The notes below the pieces were generated by a model. The model saw nothing but the letters and a program-made list of their open reading frames with translations, made no database searches and was not told the origin of the DNA. The position numbers were made by a program, and so were the translations under genes. DNA of 64,000 nucleotides from Kofleriaceae bacterium (lineage in GTDB: Bacteria; Myxococcota_A; Polyangia; Haliangiales; Haliangiaceae), in the NCBI GenBank assembly GCA_018058095.1, contig JAGPCO010000002.1:62001-126000 (forward strand), read 5' to 3'. Numbering within the stretch: position 1 is the stretch's first letter; the number at the start of each line of letters is the position of its first letter. Of the stretch, positions 32,575 through 41,772 are shown in pieces.

Positions 32575-33708
32575 GTGGGAAGGTTCCGCGCGCTCGTCGT
32601 CCACCCGCAGCCGGAGGCGCTCGGCGAGCTGGCCGAGCTGCTGCGCGACGCCGGCCTGATGGTCGAGACCGCGCGCACCGCGGTCGAGGCCGGCAACAAG
32701 GTCCGGGCCAACGTGCCGCACGTGCTGGTGGCCGGGCACCACCTGCCCGAGCTCGACGCGGTGGCCTTCCTCGAGGCGACCATCGTGCCGGCGCCCGAGG
32801 CCCTGCGGCTGGCGCTGGTCGGCTCGCCCGAGGACGCGGTCGAGCTCGACTACCGCCCGGCCCACGCCGGCACCATCATGCGCGTGGTGGCCCGACCGGC
32901 CGAGCGCAGCCGGCTGGTCGCGGTGGTGGGGGAGGGCATCAAGCTGCTGTCGCTGGTCGCCGAGCAGCGCGAGCTGGTCAAGAAGATCTCCACCGAGTAC
33001 CAGCGGCTGCAGCGGCGCGAGACCCTGCTCGACATGGTCGTGCGCGAGCGGACCAAGGAGCTGCAGGACAGCTACGAGAAGCTCAAGGCGGCCAACCGGC
33101 AGGCGCTGTTCGGCCTGGCCGAGGCGATCGAGGCCAAGGATCCGTACACCAAGGGCCACTGCGGTCGGGTCGCGGCCTACTCGCTGGTCCTGGCCCGCGA
33201 GGCCGGCTACCCGGTCGAGGGCCTCGAGACGCTCGAGTTCGGCGCGTTCCTGCACGACATCGGCAAGATCGGCATCCGTGACGCCGTGCTGCTCAAGGCC
33301 GGCCCGCTCGACGAGCCAGAGTGGGTCCACATGCGCGAGCATCCGGTCAAGGGCTGCGAGATCGCGTCGAAGATCGACATGCTGCACCCGATCATGCCGG
33401 CGGTGCGCAACCACCACGAGCGCTGGGACGGCACCGGCTACCCCGACCGGATGGTGGCCGAGGGGATCCCGCTGGTGGCGCGGATCGTCGCCATCGCCGA
33501 CGCCTACGACGCGATGTCGACCGAACGCCCGTACAAGGCCGCGCTGCCGCTCGACGAGTGCGAGGCCATCCTCGGCAAGACCGCCGGCAAGATGTACGAC
33601 CCCGACCTGATCAAGATCTTCGTCGACCGCCACCTCGGCGCCCTGTACCGCGAGGAATACGACGGCGAGCCGTACCCGGACGGGCTGGTCAGCTCCGCCG
33701 AGCGCTGA
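32575..33708 (+). CDS. HD-GYP domain response-regulator-like protein
   Basis: The 377-residue protein has an N-terminal receiver-like domain (1-120, [20 protein letters not shown]) that lacks the usual phospho-acceptor Asp in the [14 protein letters not shown] segment, a coiled coil (about 125-175), and a C-terminal HD-GYP domain: [42 protein letters not shown] and [19 protein letters not shown] domains hydrolyse cyclic di-GMP. The HD pair and GYP-type signature are intact, so the enzyme is probably active; the degenerate receiver may respond to partners rather than phosphorylation. Start GTG at 32575, after TATAAT. Confidence 0.9.
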
Positions 33709-33733
33709 CCGGTCGGGCCCAACCTGCTAGGCT
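33705..33733 (+). promoter_or_regulatory. sigma70-like promoter of the methyltransferase gene
   Basis: CTGACC (33705-33710), 17 nt, TAGGCT (33728-33733), then 10 nt to the ATG at 33744. The -35 box overlaps the stop codon of the HD-GYP gene. Confidence 0.4.
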
Positions 33734-33743
33734 CCAGCGCCGA

Positions 33744-34673
33744 ATGGACTGGCGGCTCAAAGGCCTGGTGCAGAAGGCGCTCGGCGTGGCTCCACGCGGC
33801 GAGCAGCTGCACTACTGGCTACAGAAGAAGGCTGGAGGCCTGCGCGGGTTCGAGCGCGAGTGCGACATCAAGGTCGACGACTTCGGCCTGATGGTCGGGC
33901 ACCTGCGCTCGGTCGGCTGGGAGGTCGCCGGCGCCCGGCTGCTCGAGATCGGCTCGGGCTGGTATCCGACGTTCCCGGTCTGCCTGCACCTGCTCGGCGC
34001 GACCCGGGTCGAGACGTTCGACCTGACCCGGCACATGCGGCCCGAGCTGGTCGCGGCCATGGTCGAGCGCCTGCGCCGCCACCTCGCCACCCTGGCCGCG
34101 CTCGGCCAGGTCGCGCTGGCCGAGGTCGAGCGCCGCCACCGGGTGCTGGCCGCCTCGATCGCCGACGGCGCCACCATCGAGGCGGCCAGCCGCGGCGGCA
34201 TCGTCTATCACGCGCCGGCCGACGCCGCGCGCACCGGCCTGGCGCCGGGCGCGGTCGACGTGGTGTTCTCCAACAGCGTCCTCGAGCACGTGCCGGGCCC
34301 GGTCATCGCCGCCATCTTCGAGGAGGCGCACCGGGTGCTGTCGCCGCGCGGCGTGATGTTCCACTCGGTCAACTGCGGCGACCACTACGCGTACGTCGAT
34401 CGGTCGATCGATCAGCTGCACTACCTGCAGTACTCGGAGGCGCGCTGGCGGTTCTGGAACAACGCCTTCCTGTACCAGAACCGGCTCCGGGCCGAGGACT
34501 TCACCCGCGCGGCCCGGGCGGCCCGGTTCACCATCGAGGTCGACACCTCGCGCCCGCACCCCGACCGCCTGCGCCAGCTGGACGCCATCACCGTCGATCG
34601 CCACTTCGCGCGCTACTCGCGCGACCAGCTGGCGATCACCAGCATCGACTTCGTGGCCCGGCCCGAGCGATGA
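33744..34673 (+). CDS. SAM-dependent class I methyltransferase
   Basis: The 309-residue protein has a SAM-binding motif LLEIGSGWYPTFPV (about 66-79), an acidic strand end VETFDLTRH, motif IV-like VDVVFSNSVLEHVPG, and SPRGVMFHSVNCGDH. Its long insert between strands and the DHYAYVDRSIDQLHYLQYSE segment are unlike small-molecule methyltransferases of primary metabolism; it may act on a glycan, lipid or natural product. The 3' end (FVARPER and stop) is the first part of an 84-bp tandem repeat. Confidence 0.82.
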   Translation: MDWRLKGLVQKALGVAPRGEQLHYWLQKKAGGLRGFERECDIKVDDFGLMVGHLRSVGWEVAGARLLEIGSGWYPTFPVCLHLLGATRVETFDLTRHMRPELVAAMVERLRRHLATLAALGQVALAEVERRHRVLAASIADGATIEAASRGGIVYHAPADAARTGLAPGAVDVVFSNSVLEHVPGPVIAAIFEEAHRVLSPRGVMFHSVNCGDHYAYVDRSIDQLHYLQYSEARWRFWNNAFLYQNRLRAEDFTRAARAARFTIEVDTSRPHPDRLRQLDAITVDRHFARYSRDQLAITSIDFVARPER

Positions 34674-34883
34674 GCGCCGGCCGTGCCCCGCACGGTCAGC
34701 TCGCGCCCGCGTCGCGGGCGCATCGCCTTCGCCTTCGTGGCCCGGCCCGAGCGATGAGCGCCGGCCGTGCCCCGCACGGTCAGCTCGCGCCCGCGTCGCG
34801 GGCGCATCGCCTTCGCCTTCGTGGCCCGGCCCGAGCGATGGGCGCGGGCCGCGCCCCGCAGCTCGCGCCCGCGTCGCGGGCGA
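34650..34883. repeat. 84-bp tandem repeat, about 2.8 units
   Basis: Units at 34650-34733 and 34734-34817 are identical; a third at 34818-34883 is diverged with a short deletion. The first unit includes the last seven codons and stop of the methyltransferase gene, so each later unit carries an out-of-context copy of the gene's end. The third unit ends just before the GNAT gene. A length of 84 (28 codons) keeps the reading frame. Confidence 0.9.
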
Positions 34884-35484: not shown

Positions 35485-37998
35485 TCAGGCGCGGGGCCGG
35501 GCCTGTGCGTCGCGCGGGCGCCGGCGCAGCGCCAGCAGCGCGACCAGACCGGCCATGAGCAGCGACGAGGTCGGGGTGCTCTGGGCGCCGCAGCAGCCGG
35601 CGCGCGGGCTGCGCGGCAGCGGGCCGACCGCGCCGCCGCCCATGGTCGCGTCTCCACCCCCTGGGGGCGCGCCACCGCTGCCGGCGTCGGCGTGGCCGGC
35701 CGGGTCGTCCGGCACGGGGTCGCCGGTCCCGACCGCGAGCGCACCGCTGCCGCTGCCAGCACCGCTGCCGCTACCAGGACCGGCGCCGCTGCCGCCGCCA
35801 GCGATCGCCGGATCGGGCCGGCCGCTGGTCATCCGCGCGTCGTCGCGCACCACGCAGGCGGCGTCGAGCGTGAACACCAGGGGCTTGCCGCCGAAGCGGC
35901 CGCCGGCCTTGATGGCCAGGTCACACGCGCCGGCCTGGGCCGAGGCCACGACGTCGGACAGGCCGCCCGACTCGGGGGCGCCGACCACGACGTAGCGCGC
36001 CGCCCGCGCCGGCACGGTGGTGCGGACGTCCTTGCCGGTCGCCTCGATCACCACCGCCGCCTCGCCGCCGCGCTCGAGCCAGACCGCACGGAAGCCGTCG
36101 CCCGGGCGGACCTCGGCCGTGGTCGCGGCCTCGCCGCGGCCGACCGCGTCGAGGACGTGGACCGCGCCCATGGTGGGCCCCGGCACCTCGAGGCGGAGGT
36201 CGCTGACCGGGAAGCGCGCGCCGTCGCAGTTACCGCGCGTGGTCGAGCTGCCGAAGCAGTCCTTGGCGCTCGGGGTGGCGAGCTCGGCCTTGCCACCGCT
36301 GAGGGCGAGCTGGGTCAGGTGCAGGGTCGAGTTGCCGAGCGTCGAGGTGGCCCGCTTGCCCTCGAGGTTCCAGCGCTCGGCGGCGCGGAAGCGCAGGTAC
36401 AGCGCGCGGTCGGCCGCGCCGGAGCGGGCCCGGTCGAGCACGACCATGCTGGCGTCGGCGCCGCCGCGCCACGGCACCAGCACGAGGTCGCGCACCGCCT
36501 CCGGGACGTCGGACGGCCGGTCCTGGAACTTGTACTGGTCGGCGTAGTTGCAGCGTCCGACGACGACGCCACCCTGGGTCTGGTGGGCCCACTCCCAGCG
36601 CGTCTTCTCGCTCCAGAAGGCCTGGCCCGGCACGTAGTCGGCCGGCAGCTGGCCCGACTTCACCGTCGGAGCGTTCGAGGTCATCGTCGACAGCGTGCCG
36701 TACGGCGACGGGTCGACCAGCAGGTGGTCGCCGCCGCGCGACAGCACCAGGTTGCCGGCGTTGGGGTGGAAGTGGTCGATGTCGACGGTCTTGGTGCACT
36801 GCATCACCGTCCACACCGCACGGGTGTCCCAGCGCGTGCGCGCGTACAGGTTGCCGATGCCGCGGGTCAGATACCAGGTCTGCCAGCTCGCGCGCGGCAC
36901 CGGCTTGGGCTCCTTGCCCAGGCCCTCGGCCAGGGCGGTGAACAGCAGCCAGTCGTTGCTGGTGAGGCGCAGGCGGTCGATCTCGGCCCGGGCCCAGGCC
37001 TGGCTGTCGTCGGGCGCGGCGCCGAGCGCGACCGCGGCCAGCATGTTGACCGGCACCGGCAGGTTGGCGCTCGGGACCTGGGTGTCACCGCCGACGAAGA
37101 TGGTGTCGTCGGGCGCGCTGCCGTAGACGTGGCGGAGCAGGATGCCGGCCAGGAACTCGCGCAGGCCGGCGACCTCGACGCCCTGCTCGGTCATGGCGCG
37201 CCCGGCCAGCGCGTACGAGGCCATCGACAGCGGCGCGTACTGGAAGCCCTCGCCCCAGTCGCCGCCATCGAGCACGCCGCCGCGCAGCGCCTTGGCCATG
37301 TCGCCCTTCCACAGATCGTCGGCGACGTGGCGCCACAGCCGGGCGCTGGCGTCGCCGCCCTCTCCGCCCTGGGCGACGGCGATGAGGGTCGCGGCCAGGA
37401 GGTAGCCGGCCTGGTAGTTGGTGCCCGGGCTGCGCGCGCGGTAGCCGCTCGCCAGGTACCAGGTGGTCCACGCCGCCCAGCGCTGCCGGGCCCGGGCCCG
37501 CAGCGCCGGCGTCATCTTCGGGTGGTCGTGCAGCCAGTCGTAGGCCAGCGCGGTGTACGGCCCCATGGCGCGGATGGCGAAGCCGCTGTCGCGCCGGGCC
37601 GCCTGGTCGCCACCCTTGCCGTCGCCGACGGTCTGCAGGTCGTCGATGAGGGCGGTGAAGTACTTGAGCGAGGTGTCGGCGTAGGCCGGGCGCTCGGTCG
37701 CGGCCCAGGCGACCAGGCACGCTTGCAGGTACTGGGCCCAGTCGAGGCCCATGTACAGGTCGCGCGCGAACCGGTCGGGCGCGCTGCCGAGCTCGTCGCA
37801 GCGGGCCACCGCCTTGGCGGTCGCGCTGCCGCGGATCGCGCCGAGCTTCTTCCAGCTGGCGCGCAGCGTCGGGGTCAGGACGATGCGCGGGTGGGCGCCG
37901 CGCGGCTCGGGCTGGGCCGTGGCGGGCGTCGGCGCGGAGGCGACGGCGACCAGCGCGGCGAGCAGGGCGGCGGTGACCAGCGCAGGCGAGCGAGGCAT
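35485..37998 (-). CDS. secreted heparinase II/III-like protein with MYXO-CTERM tail
   Basis: The 837-residue protein has a signal peptide (about 1-28, ending ATAQP), an all-helical alpha/alpha-toroid region (35-340, with YTALAYDWLHDHPKM and YQAGYLLAATLIAVAQ) and a beta-sandwich region (about 380-690, with TVDIDHFHPNAGNLVLSRGG), the layout of heparinase II/III polysaccharide lyases. A Gly/Ser/Pro-rich linker (715-795) leads to AGCCGAQS, a hydrophobic helix and RRRP, a MYXO-CTERM sorting signal. It is therefore a surface-anchored lyase or binding protein for a polysaccharide. Catalytic residues cannot be assigned with certainty. Confidence 0.8.
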   Translation of the reverse strand: MPRSPALVTAALLAALVAVASAPTPATAQPEPRGAHPRIVLTPTLRASWKKLGAIRGSATAKAVARCDELGSAPDRFARDLYMGLDWAQYLQACLVAWAATERPAYADTSLKYFTALIDDLQTVGDGKGGDQAARRDSGFAIRAMGPYTALAYDWLHDHPKMTPALRARARQRWAAWTTWYLASGYRARSPGTNYQAGYLLAATLIAVAQGGEGGDASARLWRHVADDLWKGDMAKALRGGVLDGGDWGEGFQYAPLSMASYALAGRAMTEQGVEVAGLREFLAGILLRHVYGSAPDDTIFVGGDTQVPSANLPVPVNMLAAVALGAAPDDSQAWARAEIDRLRLTSNDWLLFTALAEGLGKEPKPVPRASWQTWYLTRGIGNLYARTRWDTRAVWTVMQCTKTVDIDHFHPNAGNLVLSRGGDHLLVDPSPYGTLSTMTSNAPTVKSGQLPADYVPGQAFWSEKTRWEWAHQTQGGVVVGRCNYADQYKFQDRPSDVPEAVRDLVLVPWRGGADASMVVLDRARSGAADRALYLRFRAAERWNLEGKRATSTLGNSTLHLTQLALSGGKAELATPSAKDCFGSSTTRGNCDGARFPVSDLRLEVPGPTMGAVHVLDAVGRGEAATTAEVRPGDGFRAVWLERGGEAAVVIEATGKDVRTTVPARAARYVVVGAPESGGLSDVVASAQAGACDLAIKAGGRFGGKPLVFTLDAACVVRDDARMTSGRPDPAIAGGGSGAGPGSGSGAGSGSGALAVGTGDPVPDDPAGHADAGSGGAPPGGGDATMGGGAVGPLPRSPRAGCCGAQSTPTSSLLMAGLVALLALRRRPRDAQARPRA

Positions 37999-38047: not shown

Positions 38048-39817
38048 TCAGGCCAGCGCGTCGGCGACGTCGTCGTCGCTGCCGACCGGCTCGAACCCGG
38101 GCCGGGTCCGCGCGGTGAGCACGAACCGGACCAGCGCGCCGACGTAGCGCTCGAAGCGGGGGCAGGCCAGCCCGGCCGGCGCGAGCAGCTCGTCGGCGCT
38201 GGCGGTGTCGTAGTAGACGGGCCGGTCGAACCGGTCGACGAAGGCGCGCGGCGCCCGGGCCAGCTGGGCCAGGCCGGGCGCGCGCAGCAGCACGCGGGTC
38301 AGGCCGCCGGCGCGCGAGGCCCGCGGCGGCGGCGTGCCGGCCGCCTGCGCCACCAGCTCGAACACCCGCCGCGCCGGCAGCGCCTCGGGGTCGGTCAGGT
38401 GCACGGTGCGACCACGCGCGCGCGGGTCGGCCGCCAGGCGCCGGGTCGCGTCGATCACGTAGTCGATCGGCACCAGGTTGAGCGGGGCGTCGCCGCGGCC
38501 GGGCAGGGGCAGGCGCAGGCCCGAGCTGTTGGTCGCGATCAGCACCAGCAGGTAGTACGGCCCGTCGAAGCGGTCGATCTCGCCGGTGACGCTGTCACCG
38601 ACGATGAGGCTGGGCCGGACGATGGTGATCGGGAGGCGCCCGGCGGCGCCGGCGACCAGGCGCTCGGCCTCGAACTTGGTCCGCTCCGACGCGTTGTGGA
38701 AGGCCTGGCCGGCCACCAGCTCGTCCTCGCGCACCACCCCGCGCCGCTTGCCGGCGACCAGCGCGCTCGACCAGTGGATCATCCGCTGCAGGTGGGCGCA
38801 GTCGGCCGCCAGGTCGAGCGCGCCGCGGGTGCCACCGACGCCGAGGCGCTGCGCGCTGGCGGCGTCGAGGCCCGGGTAGTACGCCCCGGCCAGGTGGTAC
38901 AGCGTGGTGATCGATCGGGTCAGCGCCAGGTACTCGCCGCTGGGCAGCCCGAGGTCCATGTCGCACACGTCGCCGGTCACCACCTCGACCCGGGCCCCGG
39001 TCTCGGCCGCGACCTCGGCGGCGAAGCGGGCGGCGTCGTCGCCGAACTTGGCGCGCGCCAGCACCCGCACCGGCGTGGTCGGGTCGTGGCCGGCCAGCTC
39101 GCGCACCAGGCGCCGGGCGGTGAAGGCCGGGAAGCCAGTCACCAGCACACACGGCGCCGCTGCGCCGGCGCCGCGGCTCGGTCCGGCCTGGGCCGCTGCT
39201 GCCGCGATCGGCCCGAACCGCGCCTCGATCGCCGTGACCACGCGCTCGATCTCGTGCGCCAGCGCCGCCTCGTCCCCGTCGTTGTCGATGACCCAGGTCG
39301 CGACCGCCCGCTTGTCCGCCAGCGGCAGCTGCGCCGCCAGCCGGGCGTCGGCCTCGGCCGGGCTCAGGCCGTCGCGGCTGGCCATGCGCGCCCGCTGCAC
39401 CGCCGGCTCGGCGGCGACCACGACGGTGGCCGCCAGCGACGTGTGCAGCTTGTTCTCGATGAGCAGCGCCGCCTCGTAGAACACCACGCCGGCCCCGGCG
39501 GCGCCGTGGCGGGCGATCTCCTGCTGCGACAGCGCGGCGATGCGCGGGTGGGTGATCTGGCCGAGCCGGGCCCGGGCCACGGGATCGGCGAACACCCGCG
39601 CGCCGAGCGCCTTGCGATCGAGCCGGCCGTCGTCGGTCAGGATGCTGGTGCCGAAGTACGTGGTCAGCTCGGCCAGCGCCGGCTGGCCGGGCTCGACCAC
39701 GCGCCGGGCCAGCTCGTCGGCGTCGACCACGGCGGCGCCGCGGGCGCGCAGGGCGCGGGCCACCGTGCTCTTGCCGGAGGCGATGCCGCCGGTCAGCCCG
39801 ATGACGACGGGACTCAC
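38048..39817 (-). CDS. coaE: dephospho-CoA kinase fused to an extended SDR (reductase-like) domain
   Basis: The 589-residue protein is two enzymes in one. Residues 1-205 are CoaE, the last step of CoA synthesis: P-loop GLTGGIASGKST (8-19), DADELARRVVEPG and FYEAALLIENKLH. Residues 222-589 are an extended short-chain dehydrogenase/thioester-reductase-like domain (VLVTGFPAFTARRLVRELAG, TTLYHLAGAYYPG, SSALVAGKR, VRPSLIVGDSVTGEIDRFDG). Two features are odd: the glycine-rich turn reads TGFPAFTA, and the catalytic YxxxK is ASERTK, with Ser for Tyr. Start ATG at 39817 overlaps the rimI stop by 4 nt. Confidence 0.92.
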   Translation of the reverse strand: MSPVVIGLTGGIASGKSTVARALRARGAAVVDADELARRVVEPGQPALAELTTYFGTSILTDDGRLDRKALGARVFADPVARARLGQITHPRIAALSQQEIARHGAAGAGVVFYEAALLIENKLHTSLAATVVVAAEPAVQRARMASRDGLSPAEADARLAAQLPLADKRAVATWVIDNDGDEAALAHEIERVVTAIEARFGPIAAAAAQAGPSRGAGAAAPCVLVTGFPAFTARRLVRELAGHDPTTPVRVLARAKFGDDAARFAAEVAAETGARVEVVTGDVCDMDLGLPSGEYLALTRSITTLYHLAGAYYPGLDAASAQRLGVGGTRGALDLAADCAHLQRMIHWSSALVAGKRRGVVREDELVAGQAFHNASERTKFEAERLVAGAAGRLPITIVRPSLIVGDSVTGEIDRFDGPYYLLVLIATNSSGLRLPLPGRGDAPLNLVPIDYVIDATRRLAADPRARGRTVHLTDPEALPARRVFELVAQAAGTPPPRASRAGGLTRVLLRAPGLAQLARAPRAFVDRFDRPVYYDTASADELLAPAGLACPRFERYVGALVRFVLTARTRPGFEPVGSDDDVADALA

Positions 39818-40296
39818 CCGGCGGTGCTACCACGATCGCCGGGCGACCACACCATCACCAGCGCGTCCTCGCCGTTGTCGCCGTAGTAGGCCGACCGCAC
39901 CAGCAGGGTGCGGAAGCCGTGGGCCTGGTACAGGGCGATGGCGGCGGCGTTGCCGCGTCGGACCTCGAGCGTGACGACGCCCGGCCCGGCCGCCAGGACG
40001 TGCCGCAACAGGGCGGCGCCGACACCGGCCCGGCGATGCACCGGATCGGCGGCGATGGCCAGCAGCTGGATCTCGTCGCACACCACCCAGAAGTCGACGA
40101 AGCCGACCACCTCCCCGCCCACGCGCGCCACCGCCAGCCGGGCCCAGGCCCGGGTCAGCTCGGCCGCCAGCGCGGCCCGGCCCCACGGCCGCGGGAACGA
40201 CGCGGCCTCGATGGCGGCCACGCGATCCAGGGTGGCGTCGTCGCCGGCCGTGACCGGCTCGATCACCAGCGCGGCCGGGCCGGCCGGCGCGGTCAC
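39814..40296 (-). CDS. rimI: ribosomal-protein-alanine N-acetyltransferase RimI
   Basis: The 160-residue GNAT protein has EAASFPRPWGRAAL near the N-terminus, EIQLLAIAADPVHRRAGVGAALL (acetyl-CoA-binding motif), LEVRRGNAAAIALYQAHGF, and VRSAYYGDNGEDALVM at the end, all typical of RimI, which acetylates the N-terminus of ribosomal protein S18. It overlaps the coaE-SDR start by 4 nt and is preceded after one nucleotide by engB, forming a compact operon. Confidence 0.92.
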   Translation of the reverse strand: MTAPAGPAALVIEPVTAGDDATLDRVAAIEAASFPRPWGRAALAAELTRAWARLAVARVGGEVVGFVDFWVVCDEIQLLAIAADPVHRRAGVGAALLRHVLAAGPGVVTLEVRRGNAAAIALYQAHGFRTLLVRSAYYGDNGEDALVMVWSPGDRGSTAG

Positions 40297-40297
40297 G

Positions 40298-40909
40298 TCA
40301 GGCCTTGCCGCCCGACACGGCCGCGGCCGCGGTGGTGATGGCCCGCCACACCGCGTCGTGCCCGAGCTGGGCCTCGGTCGAGAACACGATGGGGGCGCCG
40401 GCGGCGGGCAGGGCGGCGCGGGCGGCGCGCGCGGTCGGCTCGCGCTTGTTCTTGGCCAGCTTGTCGCTCTTGGTCAGCACCATCCGTACCGGCAGCTGCT
40501 TGTCGGCCAGCCAGGCCACGAAGTCGCGCTCCTCGTCCTCGGGCCCGCGTCGCAGGTCGACCAGCAAGAGGATGAGGGCCAGGGTCGGCCGGTTCGACAG
40601 GTAGCTCTCGATGAGCGGCTGCCAGGCCGCGCGCAGGTCGCGCGACACCGCGGCGTAGCCGTAGCCGGGCAGGTCGACGAAGTTGACCGCGTTGCCGCGC
40701 TCGGGCACGACCCGGAACCAGTTGACCAGGCGGGTCCGGCCCGGCGTGCGCGAGGTGCGCGCCAGCGAGCCATGCCCGACCAGGGCGTTGATGAGGCTCG
40801 ACTTGCCGACGTTGGAGCGGCCGACGAAGGCGATCTCCGGCAGGTCGGCGGGCGGGAAGTCGCTGGCGGCGGCGGCGGAGATGACGAACTGGGCGTCGCG
40901 TGGGCGCAT
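40298..40909 (-). CDS. engB: ribosome biogenesis GTP-binding protein EngB (YihA/YsxC)
   Basis: The 203-residue protein has GRSNVGKSS (30-38), TPGRTRLVNWF (switch I region), DLPGYGYA (G3) and LTKSDK (G4), diagnostic for EngB. It assists 50S subunit assembly. The ATG at 40909 was chosen because the family begins close to QFVISAAAASDFPP; the stop of the upstream PEGA gene lies 2 nt away. Confidence 0.95.
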   Translation of the reverse strand: MRPRDAQFVISAAAASDFPPADLPEIAFVGRSNVGKSSLINALVGHGSLARTSRTPGRTRLVNWFRVVPERGNAVNFVDLPGYGYAAVSRDLRAAWQPLIESYLSNRPTLALILLLVDLRRGPEDEERDFVAWLADKQLPVRMVLTKSDKLAKNKREPTARAARAALPAAGAPIVFSTEAQLGHDAVWRAITTAAAAVSGGKA

Positions 40910-40911
40910 GA

Positions 40912-41772
40912 TCACTCGATGGTTCCGGTCACCGGCGCGCTGTCGTCGTCCCGGGTCACCGCGTAGATGGTGGCGCCGGTGGCTCCGGCGACGGCGGCGC
41001 CAGCGATGGCGACCACCCACCACCGCTGGTACCACGGCGGGGCGGCGCCGCGGCGGGCCAGCTCGGCCGCGACCGCCACCTCGCCATCGGGCTGGACCTG
41101 GATCGAGGCCGCGAACGGGACGAAGCCGGCCTTCTCGACCCGGACCGGGTACGTCGCCGGAGCCCGGACCAGGACCGGCGCGAGCGGGGTCGTGCCGCGG
41201 CGCTCGCCGCCGATGGAGACGATGGCGCCGCGCAGGTTGGCGGTGACGTGGATGGAGCCAAACCGCATGAAGTCGGTCGGTGGCAGGAGCCGGCCCAGGT
41301 ACTGGCCGAGCCCGGCCCGGTCGGGGCTCTCGCCGGGCGGCAGCGACTCGGCGACGCGGCTGGCGACCTTGCGGTCGGCCACCCGGATGCGCTGCAGCGT
41401 GAGGATGACGTCGCCCAGCTCGCTGACCCCGACCAGGACGACGTCGGCCACCCCGAGCTTGGCGCCGATGCCGGCCAGGCAGGTCGCCTCGCCGGCGCAG
41501 GCGGCGACCGCGCCGTCGAGGTCGGCCCCGAACGTCTGCCGGGCCGCGGCCCGGGTCACCAGCCGGAGCGAGGTCAGCCCAGCCACCTCGTCGGCGGTGC
41601 GATCGGCGATGCCGGGCAGCGCCGACGAGCCGGCCCGGAACTCGAGCACCACCACGCCGCGGCGCGGGTCGTCGTCGCCGCCGGCCCGGGCCGGCCGGAC
41701 CGTGGTCGACAGCAGGAGCACGATCGCCGCCGCCGCCGCCGCGCGCGGACCAGACCAGGCGGGGAGGGTCAT
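40912..41772 (-). CDS. PEGA-domain protein with signal peptide and C-terminal TM helix
   Basis: The 286-residue protein has a signal peptide (about 1-30, ending RPARAGG), a region with YfgG/Csg-like nucleotide of unknown function (VVVLEFRAGSSALPG, LVTRAAARQTFGADLDG), a PEGA motif region (SIHVTANLRGAIVSIGGERRGTTPL, PVRVEKAGFVPF, residues about 180-235) and a C-terminal membrane helix (WWVVAIAGAAVAGATGATIYAV). PEGA domains mediate surface interactions in myxobacteria. The ATG at 41772 overlaps the end of the upstream lipoprotein gene (ATGA). It probably works with that lipoprotein in the envelope. Confidence 0.75.
   Translation of the reverse strand: MTLPAWSGPRAAAAAAIVLLLSTTVRPARAGGDDDPRRGVVVLEFRAGSSALPGIADRTADEVAGLTSLRLVTRAAARQTFGADLDGAVAACAGEATCLAGIGAKLGVADVVLVGVSELGDVILTLQRIRVADRKVASRVAESLPPGESPDRAGLGQYLGRLLPPTDFMRFGSIHVTANLRGAIVSIGGERRGTTPLAPVLVRAPATYPVRVEKAGFVPFAASIQVQPDGEVAVAAELARRGAAPPWYQRWWVVAIAGAAVAGATGATIYAVTRDDDSAPVTGTIE

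Follow-up and report, generated by a model that had tools for sequence, protein, structure and literature searches.

Organization of the Locus

The window, that is, the whole stretch of 64,000 nucleotides analyzed here, comes from a Kofleriaceae bacterium and carries on its minus strand, at positions 38048-39817, a gene made of a single frame open from end to end, with a GTG start, 589 codons and a stop codon at 38048-38050. Residues 1-205 (39203..39817) form a CoaE domain (Pfam CoaE, 2.9e-53; TIGR00152, 156.7 bits), which an Ala/Gly-rich linker at residues 206-222 (39152..39202) joins to a thioester-reductase-like extended SDR domain at residues 223-589 (38051..39151; Pfam NAD_binding_4, 1.8e-33; Foldseek top match 4u7w). 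In the Pfam search both domains scored above their curated cut-offs, CoaE over residues 5-182 and NAD_binding_4 over residues 226-457. The structure model of the fused protein has a mean pLDDT of 87.8, with values below 50 at residues 209-217 of the linker, and codon usage is alike in the two halves of the gene (GC3 of 0.985 and 0.981). These data agree with the initial annotation, which had described a complete CoaE joined in one frame to an extended SDR, and place the gene on the minus strand.

Directly upstream of the fusion lies rimI, encoding the ribosomal protein S18-alanine N-acetyltransferase (39814..40296, minus; TIGR01575, 105.9 bits vs. a cut-off of 86.4), whose stop overlaps the GTG start of the fused gene (GTGA; junction GGGTGAGTCC). 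Upstream of rimI we found the engB/ysxC GTPase gene (40298..41035, minus; TIGR03598, 200 bits vs. a cut-off of 124.45), with its true start probably inside this open reading frame. Downstream of the fusion, an open reading frame of 837 amino acids without a Pfam match (35485-37998, minus) encodes at its C-terminal end a stretch rich in Gly and Pro, after which come a cysteine pair, a hydrophobic segment and a basic tail. Additionally, an 84-base unit is repeated 2.9 times with 93% matches at positions 34645-34882, at the 3' end of a 450-amino acid open reading frame (33321-34673) and past it.

The CoaE Half

The first half of the protein has the P-loop GLTGGIASGKS at residues 7-17 and exceeds by far the cut-off of the NCBIfam equivalog for CoaE (TIGR00152, 65.55 bits). 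None of 44 near-invariant CoaE columns departs in the window protein, and the same absence of departures was found in the other three fused proteins whose SDR lacks the catalytic Tyr (L017, L021 and L018). In a structure search, the solved CoaE structures of E. coli, Burkholderia, Klebsiella and Thermus showed 35-39% identity to this half. Profile searches with Pfam and NCBIfam gave no match to a CoaD domain in the window protein, and a UPF0157 domain C-terminal to CoaE was not found, since PRK03333 reached 171.9 bits against a cut-off of 215 and covered residues 5-206 only. The best reading of these sequence features is that the first half is predicted to be a working dephospho-CoA kinase.

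The SDR Half

The second half belongs to the Male sterility/thioester reductase group (PF07993, NAD_binding_4, 116.2 bits vs. a cut-off of 20.1), and its top match in the PDB is the reductase domain of MxaA, a myxalamid synthase (4u7w, E 2.6e-19, TMt 0.73). With the thioester reductase profile TIGR01746, it remained below the curated cut-off (81 bits vs. 213.35). Direct reading of residues 227-234 (39116..39139, minus) gives TGFPAFTA, as the initial annotation had it, a variant of the TGxxGxxG cofactor motif. Although this sequence deviates from the motif, it is common to Tyr-bearing SDRs of Polyangia, while Myxococcaceae have TGYPGFIG; its presence in Polyangia SDRs with an intact tetrad means that it is no mark of inactivity, and this part of the earlier interpretation does not stand.

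N-T/S-Y-K is the tetrad in 73 of 85 distinct SDRs, whereas the window protein has G-S-S-K. The Asn of NVxGT, which we take to be the tetrad Asn, is replaced in N326G (38840..38842), Ser351 is kept at the Ser/Thr position (38765..38767), the catalytic Tyr is replaced in Y377S (38687..38689, codon TCG) and Lys381 is kept (38675..38677), all on the minus strand. Residues 377-381 thus read S-E-R-T-K, that is, the SxxxK in place of YxxxK that had been reported earlier, when the loss of the second residue, Asn326, was missed. A single sequencing error as the source of the Tyr to Ser change was ruled out, because TCG is two bases away from either Tyr codon. A fungal carboxylate reductase loses its activity with Y844A and with K848A, and in another carboxylate reductase Y863F lowers activity drastically (PMC5826065). 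Because tetrad residues are gone and these mutants show that Tyr and Lys matter in this fold, reductase activity was likely lost, and the window SDR is not expected to reduce thioesters any longer through the SDR mechanism.

Distribution of the Fusion

The one-frame CoaE-SDR fusion was found in 20 further genomes, 19 of them from the window's family group and one in a record labelled Microthrixaceae (L040), which clusters with L002 and is probably a case of misbinning of a Kofleriaceae fusion. In the CoaE tree all fused proteins form one clade (support 99/97), and this single clade suggests that the fusion happened once. Among 80 named loci of Myxococcota, 16 are fused, 5 have no coaE in the stretch, 1 shows a gap of roughly 900 bases, and in the others the genes are adjacent. 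Outside the fused clade, coaE and the SDR gene are nearly always separate neighbors on the same strand, and in several unfused genomes they share a frame with one stop between them, so that loss of this stop would be a simple route to the fusion.

Some candidates did not hold. G174 and G180, which equal open-frame lengths had suggested as fusions outside Kofleriaceae, have separate adjacent genes; in G225, G391, G198, G256 and G122, picked for their long open frames, the coaE and SDR frames are separate; and in G383, another candidate of this kind, there was no coaE in the stretch examined. The literature searched, made up of open-licence texts, held no report of a CoaE-reductase fusion. CoaE-SDR is a new domain architecture built of known parts.

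Tetrad Loss, SDR Rate, and Probable SDR Loss after Fusion

Four proteins of the fused clade have a broken tetrad, namely that of the window (L001 in trees and locus comparisons), the sisters L017 and L021, and L018, which falls inside the other members of the window's genus. L001, L017 plus L021, and L018 occupy three separate places in this tree, and the sequences indicate three independent tetrad losses among fused proteins. With a broad, quickly built tree, a simpler count came to two changes in the whole phylum sample, because L018 was left out and L001 could be joined to L017/L021.

Tip lengths were compared on a fixed topology. Their SDR/CoaE ratio was 2.32, 3.32, 3.52 and 3.71 in the four Tyr-less fused proteins, whereas the 25 Tyr-bearing ones had a median of 0.94 (Mann-Whitney p = 0.001, an approximate value given that two of the four Tyr-less proteins are sisters and not fully independent). 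These values indicate, at the level of sequence, that the lineages with lost tetrads evolve faster as a group in the SDR relative to CoaE. Nevertheless, the groups overlap, as L003, which has an intact tetrad, reaches 2.38 on a very short branch and the window protein has 2.32, so that the acceleration of the window's own SDR is suggestive only.

A similar gradation was seen in the conserved columns. Of 94 near-invariant SDR columns, 24-33 depart in L017, L021 and L018 and only 5 in the window protein, the same number as in the most-departed intact protein of Kofleriaceae. In the first three, 27-30 of 34 near-invariant columns are kept in the nucleotide-binding half and 9-11 of 23 in the catalytic/substrate region (Fisher p 0.002-0.010), whereas the window SDR lacks such a contrast (32/34 and 22/23, respectively).

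In two genomes that the tree places within the fused clade at moderate support (G010 and G011), coaE stands alone, and CoaE ends soon after the domain. No SDR was found beside coaE or anywhere in these assemblies, which are 86% and 89% complete, and downstream of coaE no remnant of an SDR could be traced.

Tyr-less SDRs outside Kofleriaceae

In Sandaracinaceae-like and related genomes, SDRs with Tyr replaced by V or I and Lys by R also lie beside coaE, at L127 and L128 (from G225 and G391), L129, L060, L102 and L113. G225 and G391 are two closely related Sandaracinaceae-like genomes (group code f50), and the related locus L060 is labelled Sandaracinus. The Tyr-less SDR of this pair has a dN/dS of 0.079, compared with 0.090 for CoaE, which points to strong purifying selection, although both values are rough because the genes are very GC-rich. 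The strong conservation of these Sandaracinaceae-like proteins implies that an SDR without Tyr is not necessarily one without function.

In part of the Myxococcaceae and Archangium-like genomes, the SDR gene has a HadA-like dehydratase gene directly after it in gene order (e.g., L085, 7209-8042). As a phylum-wide clue to function this neighbor was rejected, since among matching loci it occurs near the SDR in these two groups only. One record titled Comamonas sp. KCTC 72670 (L097) falls inside Myxococcus in the tree and is probably mislabelled or mixed.

Fate of the SDR Domain

We lean, by a modest degree, toward a working dephospho-CoA kinase carrying a fused thioester-reductase-type SDR that became dispensable after fusion. 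The starting state would be coaE and the SDR as separate adjacent genes, as in most Myxococcota. The intervening stop would then have been lost in the common ancestor of a single clade of Kofleriaceae, giving one protein, and later, in the window lineage, Asn326 and Tyr377 would have disappeared from the SDR tetrad, and with them thioester reduction by the SDR mechanism. The CoaE half would continue its normal reaction and the SDR half would stay folded and tethered to it, with constraint on this domain relaxed, while in G010 and G011 the whole SDR domain would have been dropped after fusion. We infer fusion by stop loss, loss of SDR enzyme activity and SDR dispensability alike; dispensability is the simplest account of a domain that lost catalytic residues after fusion and that is missing altogether from two genomes. 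What counts against decay is that the window SDR is not far decayed, with few departures and a rate ratio below that of one intact protein, and that codon usage does not differ between the halves. The conserved Tyr-less SDRs of Sandaracinaceae-like genomes, and the incomplete assemblies and moderately supported placement of G010 and G011, likewise weigh against this reading.

The strongest rival is a kept pseudoenzyme, whose SDR half would bind NAD(P)(H), CoA or acyl-CoA without reduction and would regulate, feed or scaffold the CoaE half, a possibility that we regard as less likely. It would fit the better preservation of the nucleotide-binding half in L017, L021 and L018, the purifying selection on the Tyr-less SDR beside coaE in G225 and G391, and the span of the coaE-SDR pairing over the phylum. 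Rossmann residues may, however, persist for folding alone; moreover, the window protein lacks the contrast between halves, the SDR domain is missing from G010 and G011, and the Tyr-less SDRs of Kofleriaceae evolve faster as a group. Repeated tetrad loss, faster SDR evolution in those lineages and the absence of the whole domain from two relatives speak for a dispensable SDR no less than for one with a retained binding role. The proposal of the initial annotation that the SDR binds without reducing therefore fares unequally, a non-reducing SDR being likely and the binding role being rivalled by dispensability. Its link to fatty acyl or polyketide chemistry is supported only indirectly: the nearest solved structures are PKS/NRPS thioester reductase domains and the HadA-like gene comes after the SDR gene in part of the Myxococcaceae, but no gene of this sort adjoins that of the window.

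A broader version, which seems to us rather unlikely, is that the SDR across Myxococcota acts mainly as a non-catalytic partner of CoaE, sensing nucleotides or acyl-CoA and thereby tuning the final step in the making of CoA, with reduction being dispensable. If true, it would account both for the repeated loss of the tetrad and for the genes staying together or fusing.

It is improbable that the window SDR still reduces thioesters by means of the kept Ser351 and Lys381 and another proton donor. Both residues are present and 22 of 23 near-invariant catalytic/substrate columns are unchanged, but Asn326 and Tyr377 are both lost, and replacement of the equivalent Tyr in carboxylate reductases abolished or drastically cut activity. 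More doubtful still is that CoaE needs the C-terminal SDR as a folding aid, given that bacterial CoaE usually stands alone and that the nested relatives G010 and G011 have CoaE without SDR. The analogy comes from M. tuberculosis CoaE, whose N-terminal domain was insoluble alone and required its C-terminal partner, UPF0157 (PMC2765170). Finally, the fusion is not an assembly artefact, a source of error with a negligible chance even in a 7.57-Mb draft genome of 227 contigs, as the gene lies inside a 159,789-base contig and the identical open frame occurs in separate assemblies of 20 other genomes, which answers the earlier call to look for the fusion elsewhere and contradicts both an error-made junction and separate genes in all close relatives.

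The coaE-SDR pairing ties an unstudied SDR family to CoA synthesis in a testable way and across the phylum, including the genetically tractable Myxococcus. Tyr-bearing, Tyr-less, fused, unfused and SDR-free relatives provide natural comparisons for distinguishing whether SDR catalysis, binding or neither has an effect on CoaE.

Comparison with Known Systems

Stand-alone CoaE is the usual form in bacteria. The window protein shares with it a full kinase domain with a P-loop (TIGR00152, PF01121) and differs in the addition of a 367-residue C-terminal SDR. In the eukaryotic CoA synthase the partner of CoaE is CoaD, which is active and lies N-terminal to CoaE. The likeness in this case (CoaD-CoaE; 2f6r) is that of a CoaE inside a fusion. 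The initial annotation had named CoaD as the fusion partner of CoaE, but such fusions are not confined to it: known CoaE fusions are with CoaD in eukaryotes and with UPF0157 in mycobacteria, where this domain is C-terminal to CoaE (6n39; PMC2765170). The mycobacterial protein resembles that of the window in bearing an unrelated domain C-terminal to CoaE, but its extra domain is UPF0157, reported to be a folding aid, whereas that of the window is an SDR. Lastly, the terminal thioester reductases of PKS/NRPS (MxaA, 4u7w; TIGR01746) and the R domains of carboxylate reductases are alike in fold and include the nearest solved structures; unlike them, the window SDR is devoid of the tetrad Tyr and Asn and has no synthase attached.
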